A stretch of 64,000 nt of DNA, taken from assembly GCA_949283305.1 (NCBI GenBank), contig CASDRU010000006.1, positions 1-64,000 of the forward strand. The letters run 5' to 3'. This stretch comes from an uncultured Spirochaetales bacterium. GTDB taxonomy: Bacteria; Spirochaetota; Spirochaetia; Sphaerochaetales; Sphaerochaetaceae. Shown in pieces: positions 41,613-49,700 of this stretch (positions are counted from its first letter, which is position 1; each line of letters starts with the position of its first letter). Below the pieces are notes generated by a model, which ran no database searches, had not been told where the DNA came from, and saw nothing but the letters and a program-made list of their open reading frames with translations. The translations under genes and the position numbers were made by a program.

Positions 41613-42376
41613 TGGTACTGCTTGTTGATATTGGAAACACGAATATTGTTGTTGCGGTTGCGGAAAAAAATGAGTTTATAACCAAATTCCGCCTCTTTAC
41701 TGATGATAAGAAAACCAGTGATGAGTATTCTGTTATTCTCAAGTCTCTTATAAAAGAGAAGATAAGGGATTTTTCAGAAATAAAGAATGCAGTCATCTCA
41801 TCCGTCGTGCCCAATCTGACACTGAGTTTTCAGAAAGTAGTGTATTCACTTTTCTCCATTGAGCCTCTGATGGTGAGCCATGATGTCAGGACAGGTCTTG
41901 TAAGATCAACAATTCCCTCAGAACTCGGGTATGACCTTTTATGCAATCTCGCATATGCTCATCATACACACCCTGAAGAGAATGTCATGGTTGTTGACTT
42001 CGGCACGGCACTCACATTCAGCACTGTAGACAAAGAAGGAAAAGTGCTTGGAGTCTCAATCGCGCCAGGACTGATTACAGCAGTCAATTCTCTTTTTGGC
42101 GCAACTGCGCAGCTTCCACAGGTAGAGCTCAAGATACCATCATCTGTACTTGGCCGCGACAGCCAGTGCTCAATCAGAAGCGGAATCATGATAGGCTATT
42201 CAGGCCTGGTTGAGAAGATAATAAGCGAGACTGAAAAGGAAATTTCCCAGCCATTGTTTGTAATTGCCACAGGCGGGCTTTCAAAGACGATGAAAGGATC
42301 AATAAGCCGTATAGACAGCCTTGATCCTGAACATACTCTCAGGGGATTGAAGCTTATTGCAGATCTTAACTGCTAA
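41612..42376 (+). CDS. coaX: Type III pantothenate kinase
   Basis: CoaX (254 aa), first step of coenzyme A synthesis, in the ASKHA fold. It shows LLVDIGNTNIV (phosphate 1), the pantothenate-site block VDFGTALTFSTVDKEG, SIAPGLITAVNSLF and ATGGLSKTM. Complete and of normal length. It is translationally coupled to the ABC-F gene and convergent with the M29-like gene (4-nt overlap). coaD, the fourth CoA step, also lies in this window (51834). Confidence 0.93.
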   Translation: MVLLVDIGNTNIVVAVAEKNEFITKFRLFTDDKKTSDEYSVILKSLIKEKIRDFSEIKNAVISSVVPNLTLSFQKVVYSLFSIEPLMVSHDVRTGLVRSTIPSELGYDLLCNLAYAHHTHPEENVMVVDFGTALTFSTVDKEGKVLGVSIAPGLITAVNSLFGATAQLPQVELKIPSSVLGRDSQCSIRSGIMIGYSGLVEKIISETEKEISQPLFVIATGGLSKTMKGSISRIDSLDPEHTLRGLKLIADLNC

Positions 42377-43569
42377 TTGTTTTCAATCATGCCGTCAGAG
42401 AATATGAGATGGCTTTCATTATCATCATCAAATACTTCTATAAACAGATCTGATGAGGATATGGGCAGTGAAAGGGTAATTATAGATGAGGGGCTTTTGA
42501 TTTTATCCTCATCATCTTCAGCCAAATTGTAGGATTCGCATCTTGCACTTCCCAGCGTGATATGGACAGATCTGTTTTTATCCCATTCAGGATAAGCAAA
42601 ATAGGGAATTGAAGAGAATCTGTTGTTCTCTTCTGCGATTATCAGCTCCGAGGGAAGCGAGGCATCTTCATCCTGAGAGATATAGAAAGAAAAATATCTT
42701 TCAAGATTCTCTGAAGAGGAAAATGAAACAAGCTTTCCGTTTTCAAAATACAAATCAATATTTTCAAATTCCTTTCCGAAAAGCATGAAGGATCCTGTGC
42801 TGTGTATTCTTCCGTTTGCGCTGTTTTTCTCGATTGCGCGGAAATAGCTCTGAGCAGCAAGGGATGGTATGAAAGTCCTTCCGTCTCTTGTAGAAAGCAT
42901 CTGAGAAGAAAAAGATGTGTTCTCATCAAATGAGAAATAAAAATCTGTCAGACCGTCATCTGAATACATGTGGCATCTTCTGTTTTTGTTCCTATTAAGC
43001 ATTTCAAGATCATAGCGTAAAAGCTCTTTTATCTCATTGTTTGCCTTAACAGGATTCTCTTCTCCAAGGGAAAGAAGGTCAGAAATGATGACTGAAGAGA
43101 GATTCTCATCCTCTCCAAGAAGAACTGACCATTTCTTTGATGGAAGAGGAACGGTTGCAAAAGGCAGAAGAGGAAGGCTGAGATTCACAGGATTCGATAA
43201 ATGCCTGTATTCCATTATCTTTCTTGCACTGAGAGAAGAAGAAAAATCCTCAAGCTCCTCATACTCCTCATAGTCCATGAGATAGACAAAGAGAGTTGGG
43301 CTTTTCTCGATAATGTGATCTGAGTAGATCTCAGTTACCTCACTTGCTTTCCTCTCATCGGTTATTATCATGAGATAGCTGCCGTTATCTGTTGCTTCTT
43401 TTGCCTTTCTTGCAAGAATCCTTGCAAAGTCAAGATTCCTCTCGCTTGTATTTATGGCAAGAACATCATCCTTTGTGATACCAAGTGACGAATAAAGTAT
43501 GACAGTTGCATAGAGCTCATAAAATGCGTTCATGACTCTAAAATACATTTGCTTTGCTCTTTTGTCCAT
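42373..43569 (-). CDS. M29 aminopeptidase-like protein without metal ligands
   Basis: A 398-residue protein that resembles, weakly, the M29 aminopeptidase family (AmpS/PepS): an N-terminal domain with DDVLAINTSERNLDFARILARKAKE, then TRDGRTFIPSLAAQSYF at the place of the NIPTEEVFTAP motif, and VHITLGSA near the place of the late HIALG motif. The key Glu of EEVFT and other ligand residues are not conserved, so peptidase activity is unlikely. No signal peptide. No clear ribosome site before ATG 43569. The family link is tentative; it may be simply unknown. Confidence 0.5.
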   Translation of the reverse strand: MDKRAKQMYFRVMNAFYELYATVILYSSLGITKDDVLAINTSERNLDFARILARKAKEATDNGSYLMIITDERKASEVTEIYSDHIIEKSPTLFVYLMDYEEYEELEDFSSSLSARKIMEYRHLSNPVNLSLPLLPFATVPLPSKKWSVLLGEDENLSSVIISDLLSLGEENPVKANNEIKELLRYDLEMLNRNKNRRCHMYSDDGLTDFYFSFDENTSFSSQMLSTRDGRTFIPSLAAQSYFRAIEKNSANGRIHSTGSFMLFGKEFENIDLYFENGKLVSFSSSENLERYFSFYISQDEDASLPSELIIAEENNRFSSIPYFAYPEWDKNRSVHITLGSARCESYNLAEDDEDKIKSPSSIITLSLPISSSDLFIEVFDDDNESHLIFSDGMIENN

Positions 43570-43687: not shown

Positions 43688-43712
43688 TGCGTGAACAAAA
43701 AATAAAATTTTC

Positions 43713-43740
43713 TTGACATCCTGAATATGTAGTGTAGTAT
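43713..43740 (+). promoter_or_regulatory. Strong sigma-70-type promoter of the candidate sRNA
   Basis: TTGACA (perfect -35), 16-bp spacer, TAGTAT. Predicted start about 43747. Confidence 0.7.
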
Positions 43741-43746
43741 ATAAGT

Positions 43747-43836
43747 GTCTAAGAAAGTGAATACTTTCAATTTTCTGATTGAATACCTCCCAAGTCCTTT
43801 GGGCTGGATGTAGATTTCATCCAGCCCCTATTTTTC
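43747..43836 (+). ncRNA. Candidate small RNA with C-rich anti-Shine-Dalgarno stretch
   Basis: A free-standing transcription unit of about 90 nt: strong promoter upstream, then two alternative hairpins (GAAAGT/ACTTTC and TTCAAT/ATTGAA, sharing three bases), an unpaired TACCTCCC (43784-43791), and a terminator with a perfect 10-bp stem GGGCTGGATG/CATCCAGCCC and a T-run. CCCAA/TTGGG could compete with the terminator stem. A GTG-started frame of 22 codons (43745 to TAG at 43811-43813) spans the unit, so a leader peptide is an alternative. No family is recognised. Confidence 0.6.
43801..43836 (+). terminator. Terminator of the candidate sRNA
   Basis: Perfect 10-bp stem GGGCTGGATG/CATCCAGCCC, 7-nt loop, then CTATTTTTCTTT. 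Confidence 0.88.
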
Positions 43837-43860: not shown

Positions 43861-43889
43861 TTGACCAACTCTTTTTTTTAAGCTAGCAT
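43861..43889 (+). promoter_or_regulatory. tRNA-Gly promoter
   Basis: TTGACC, 17-bp T-rich spacer, TAGCAT within TAGCATACAT, the same -10 decamer as the tRNA-Gln promoter. Confidence 0.8.
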
Positions 43890-43901: not shown

Positions 43902-43973
<72 letters not shown>

Positions 43974-49466: not shown

Positions 49467-49700
49467 ATGGAAAAAGAATTAGTTGAATTCTTAGCCAGAA
49501 GCCTTGTAGATCATCCTGAATGTGTTACTGTAAATCAGGTTGAAGGAGAGAAGACAATAGTTCTCGAACTTTCAGTTGCGCCTGAAGATACAGGAAAGAT
49601 AATCGGAAAGCAGGGCAGGATTGCCAAGGCTTTGCGAACTGTCCTTTCTGCTACAGCAACAAAGGGTGGCAAGAAAGCTACACTGGAGATTCTCGGCTGA
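49467..49700 (+). CDS. khpA: KH-domain RNA-binding protein KhpA
   Basis: A 77-residue single-KH protein with the [15 protein letters not shown] GxxG loop. Found between rpsP and rimM in many bacteria and known as a KhpB partner in post-transcriptional regulation. It abuts rimM with a 1-nt overlap (TGATG). Confidence 0.92.

Follow-up and report, generated by a model that had tools for sequence, protein, structure and literature searches.

The DNA between a divergent M29-peptidase-like gene and tRNA-Gly(TCC) in this spirochaete raises the question of whether a small regulatory RNA is encoded there and, if so, how it might act. The window, i.e., the whole 64,000-nucleotide stretch that was analysed, belongs to contig 6 of a 22-contig, 1.49-Mb assembly of a bird-gut-type spirochaete related to Candidatus Ornithospirochaeta. 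An earlier note, made from the letters alone, had described a compact unit at this locus with a TTGACA-N16-TAGTAT promoter, an exposed C-rich stretch and a 10-bp terminator stem followed by a T-run, and we found all of these elements where it had placed them (Table 1). Past tRNA-Gly, the gene order continues with a DUF3276 gene, rnhB and an smc-like gene, the last label being read off the sequence only. At the start of the window, two 5S rRNA genes stand in tandem (17-130 and 206-319) with a gap of 75 bases.

Table 1. Positions of the features at the locus, numbered along the window
Feature	Position	Strand	Description
M29-peptidase-like gene	42373-43569	minus	divergent from the unit, on its 5' side
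Promoter	43713-43718 (-35 TTGACA); 43735-43740 (-10 TAGTAT)	+	16-bp spacer; direct reading and scan
Predicted small RNA	43747-43835	+	about 88 nt; deduced from the promoter and terminator positions
5' hairpin SL1 (extended)	43752-43776	+	minimum-energy fold and pair probabilities
Alternative hairpin SL2	43766-43783	+	weaker; 3' arm common with SL1
Exposed UACCUCCC	43784-43791	+	candidate pairing seed; identical in the sister species
Intrinsic terminator	43801-43835	+	perfect 10-bp stem (43801-43827), loop of 7, then T-run
tRNA-Gly own promoter, TTGACC-N17-TAGCAT	43861-43889	+	outside the unit
tRNA-Gly(TCC)	43902-43973	+	3' of the unit, outside the unit

The promoter matches the consensus at 10 of 12 positions and was the top site in a scan of 4 kb. 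The same 4 kb contains 10 promoter-like sites compared with 8.0 +/- 2.3 in shuffled sequences, a number so near the shuffle level that the promoter match alone is little proof. The tract 3' of the terminator stem reads CTATTTTTC, with CTATTTTT listed as the T-run among the parts of the unit. From the computed positions of these elements we infer transcription and the length of the product: RNA polymerase would start at about 43747, 7 nt past the -10 box of a sigma-70-type promoter of the unit's own, and would stop at about 43835, in the T-run of the intrinsic terminator. In our reading, the unit probably encodes a small RNA of about 88 nt that is transcribed on its own and has arisen recently.

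We compared the locus with that of the sister species O. avicola (genome G020, DXHU01). Positions 43700-43836 are identical at 135 of 137 bases, whereas identity is 68.7% in the 5' flank (the 130 bases before 43700) and 87.7% in the spacer that leads to the tRNA; in the neighbouring genes, third codon positions are 77-91% identical. Both differences lie towards the 3' end, one in the terminator loop (43811, T to C in the sister) and one at the end of the T-run (43836), which is longer in O. avicola; the terminator stem is identical, and 43700-43740, including the AT-rich 43700-43712 just 5' of the -35 box, shows zero changes. When 124-nt windows were slid over the aligned contig 6 as a control, about 16% of the non-coding ones carried at most one difference, which means that the level of conservation is unexceptional and that the evidence lies in the edges of the block matching the promoter and terminator. 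The unit could accordingly be suspected of being a chance assembly or decaying remnant of promoter, terminator and C-run with no function, since its conservation level is not unique, promoter-like sites are common by chance and it is confined to two species. We consider this improbable, however, because the conserved block starts just before the -35 box and stops in the T-run, with diverged sequence on both sides. The proposal of the earlier note that this is an independent small-RNA unit gains support at the sequence level from the presence of promoter and terminator and from these conserved edges; the unit matches no Rfam family. The contig has further non-coding blocks, each 124 bases or longer, that differ from O. 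avicola at no more than one position (G000:C6 219712-219962, 241092-241245, 282562-282687, 301060-301186, 309407-309550 and 313199-313641); these may be tRNAs, leaders or more small RNAs.

Among 48 genomes of the genus, the covariance model R1 places the unit in two species as a single copy per genome, namely this genome and G020. It found no copy in 25 genomes from other genera of the family, and a rerun with laxer filters over 39 genomes added none. When the genus was searched with a looser descriptor (promoter, 35-65 bases, CCTCCC), the complete design was likewise recovered in these two copies only, and the phage and plasmid collections contained no match to the unit. Conservation of the unit in relatives, as the earlier note expected for a genuine RNA, therefore holds for one sister species and fails for the other 46 of the 48 genomes of the genus, suggesting that the RNA is either young or fast-evolving. 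Several further matches were rejected. Those of R1 at G000:C6:147298 (32.8 bits), where neither CCUCCC nor a promoter or terminator was seen, and at G075:C17:12880 (31.7 bits), which has no CCUCCC and overlaps a nucleotide-sugar dehydrogenase-like gene at its 3' end, are attributed to chance; two viral contigs carry exact 18-mer matches, but these have no promoter or terminator nearby and are about as numerous as chance predicts for a collection that large; and a BLAST match in genome G048 (L006) shares a similar hairpin and CCTCC, but without promoter or terminator. The promoter-CCTCCC pattern also brought up a conserved stretch, TTGACA...GGCACTGCTATAAACGGTAGGCGGTTGGCTTCCTCGTC, shared by two members of the genus at G006:C28:3582-3676 and G028:C19:27275-27369 (L157 and L159), which is unrelated to the small RNA.

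The position of the unit, on the same strand as tRNA-Gly and 65 bp from it with the terminator in the gap, would also suit a transcription attenuator or leader, the tRNA being made by read-through. This is slightly more improbable still than a functionless remnant: the tRNA has a promoter of its own, the spacer is conserved less than the unit, and a TTGAC-type promoter before tRNA-Gly is kept in relatives that do not carry the unit (L053, L062, L064, L070, L191 and L203). Readable M29-peptidase/tRNA-Gly junctions in relatives (e.g., L062, L064, L070, L191 and L203) are shorter or are without the unit, which, together with the tRNA's own promoter, argues for a lineage-specific insertion rather than a tRNA leader.

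A 22-codon GTG frame at 43745-43813, reading VSKKVNTFNFLIEYLPSPLGWM and ending with a TAG in the terminator loop, had been offered as a translated leader. It is open in both species, and its product could be a peptide involved in attenuation or a small hydrophobic one. No Shine-Dalgarno site precedes it, however, and its GTG either coincides with the predicted transcription start or precedes it, while the sole internal difference between the species, at 43811, turns the TAG into CAG, so that the frame in O. avicola loses its stop and runs on through the terminator. Furthermore, third positions show zero changes over the 22 codons, compared with 9-23% changed in neighbouring genes. A translated leader or tiny gene is thus highly improbable, and that part of the earlier interpretation finds no support.

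The complete RNA folds with an energy of -25.6 kcal/mol (z = -3.43 vs shuffles), to which the terminator contributes most. The predicted transcript would consist of a 5' hairpin, a largely single-stranded middle of 25 nt (UGAUUGAAUACCUCCCAAGUCCUUU) and the terminator hairpin. Competing hairpins had been proposed for the upstream part and for the terminator, and SL1, SL2 and a CCCAA/UUGGG pairing do exist on paper; SL1 (-4.7 kcal/mol), however, beats SL2 (-2.5 kcal/mol), and the complete RNA strongly prefers the extended SL1 together with the terminator. The CCCAA/UUGGG helix, at -4.9 kcal/mol compared with -19.5 kcal/mol for the terminator, is formed only when the transcript stops short of the terminator 3' arm; in these models it is at most transient while the RNA is being made, and the energies do not support a lasting switch. 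The two known sequences are near-identical and lend the stems no covariation support; for SL1 and SL2 this follows from their being identical there. CCUCCC (43786-43791) is computed to be unpaired with a probability of 0.90-0.98, and no other unpaired feature of the RNA is as large or as target-like as the C-rich stretch.

Within the seed UACCUCCC lies ACCUCC, which in 16S rRNA forms the anti-Shine-Dalgarno core. We infer from this a mode of action in which the exposed ACCUCCCAAGUCC would pair in trans with the Shine-Dalgarno/start regions of some mRNAs and block translation initiation. Our preferred reading of the locus, held with moderate confidence, is that of a lineage-specific small-RNA gene whose product most likely blocks such regions through CCUCCC. 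Across 336 genes from a 349-kb portion of contig 6, 17.6% of leaders contain GGAGG compared with 2.3% of random 25-base windows, an enrichment that is somewhat inflated since the genes were called by a simple script that chose starts partly by GGAGG-type sites. Pairing of the RNA with numerous leaders is therefore conceivable in principle. Plain duplex energies with leaders are only marginally better than those of shuffled RNAs (mean -10.8 vs -10.6), and near-perfect antisense targets were found in neither genome. The earlier idea that CCTCCC pairs with purine-rich ribosome sites is therefore plausible in that the organism uses GGAGG-type sites, but the computed pairing is not clearly above that of shuffled RNAs.

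We then ranked targets with the cost of opening both target and RNA included, using 155 genes whose starts are aligned in both species, from stretches of one contig per species, with gene names taken from reading the translations. The leuA start region ranks first, with a predicted net pairing of -14.1 kcal/mol in one species and -15.4 kcal/mol in the other, followed among conserved genes by a glgC-like gene (-10.9 kcal/mol); leuC and ilvB, from the same ilv-leu operon as leuA, are among the top seven. The leuA score was equalled by 5 of 60 shuffled RNAs and is not significant, and leuA is thus, as a prediction only, the best candidate target in this sample. It is tempting to speculate that a young, Shine-Dalgarno-blocking small RNA controls branched-chain amino-acid synthesis in an Hfq-less spirochaete through leuA and other ilv-leu genes, although we regard this as a long shot. 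The top target before adjustment, C6:268795, was rejected, as it falls within the reading frame of an ABC-transporter ATPase and pairs more weakly in the sister.

The small RNA could also be real and act without Shine-Dalgarno pairing, by binding a protein, sponging another RNA or pairing with mRNAs through, e.g., the 5' hairpin. Such a role would agree with the whole unit, and not just the C-rich seed, being unchanged in the sister, and with seed-region pairing that does not exceed shuffles significantly. We nevertheless consider it rather unlikely, as no protein-binding motif was recognised, no Rfam family was matched, and the C-rich stretch is the part that most resembles a pairing site.

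If the RNA blocks Shine-Dalgarno regions as we prefer, it would probably do so without Hfq. A search for Hfq (PF17209) gave no match in this genome, which is about 96% complete, or in 39 relatives, although the positive controls were matched, suggesting that Hfq is likely absent. The KhpA/KhpB family is present, with a gene for a KhpA-type KH-domain RNA-binding protein at 49473-49691 of the window, and these proteins are candidate RNA chaperones that could assist the RNA.

C-rich, anti-Shine-Dalgarno-type devices are well known in alphaproteobacteria and Firmicutes. Of the features of this kind of small RNA, the unit has an unpaired C-rich seed and a putative promoter and terminator of its own. 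It most resembles MmgR/alpha-r8 (RF00519 'suhB', Rhizobiales) in its size (those RNAs are about 77-90 nt), in having its own promoter and a 5' hairpin, and in a CCUCCC of anti-Shine-Dalgarno character followed by an A..CUU..GGGC terminator. The RF00519 covariance model aligns to the unit over its full length in the order hairpin-CCUCCC-terminator, using the weaker SL2 rather than the favoured SL1. Its score of 18.8 bits (E 0.043 on 111 bases) is below the gathering score of 41, and in related genomes ordinary terminators reach 16-27 bits with this model, which also gives matches in 12 of 14 control genomes. We therefore rejected membership of the RF00519 family; the unit is MmgR-like in its proposed working, and kinship to MmgR is not established. 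MmgR is, moreover, Hfq-dependent (PMC7143759) and belongs to a different phylum, whereas no Hfq was found here.

The alpha-r14/NfeR1 RNAs of the 'cuckoo' group also expose a CCUCC-type anti-Shine-Dalgarno sequence in unpaired regions. The alpha-r14 RNAs have three hairpins with CCUCCUCCC in each (PMC10746234), whereas the unit has one CCUCCC, in a linker rather than a hairpin loop, and in a single copy; the two to three hairpins each exposing CCUCCUCCC by which cuckoo RNAs are recognised were not found in it. The CcsR RNAs of this group are transcribed together with the gene for a DUF1127 protein (PMC10253847), whereas the genes flanking the unit are from other families. IsrR of Staphylococcus and FsrA of Bacillus subtilis likewise have a single-stranded C-rich region for which pairing with Shine-Dalgarno sites has been proposed or shown, and IsrR works without Hfq (PMC9410917). 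IsrR, however, has three C-rich regions and is under iron control, whereas the unit has one CCUCCC; no Rfam match links the unit to IsrR or FsrA, which are from different phyla.

Altogether, the unit is probably a young small RNA specific to one species pair, new to Rfam and of a known functional kind, and the general surprise is modest given how well known the kind of device is elsewhere. Provided that it is transcribed, its appearance in a single species pair, at a gene junction that is otherwise tight, would make it a clean case of the birth of a small-RNA gene. It would also exemplify C-rich, anti-Shine-Dalgarno-like regulation in spirochaetes of an Hfq-less lineage.

A separate observation concerns the region 5' of the ilv-leu operon (G000:C6:265248-265524; L174:12270-12560, minus strand), which gave no Rfam match. 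It contains a GGAGGAG site and a short Ile/Leu-rich frame, MHRINIVSSLSSLIIISLLRS, followed by a terminator directly before the first ilv-leu gene, an arrangement that looks like a classical leader-peptide attenuator, here putatively in a spirochaete.
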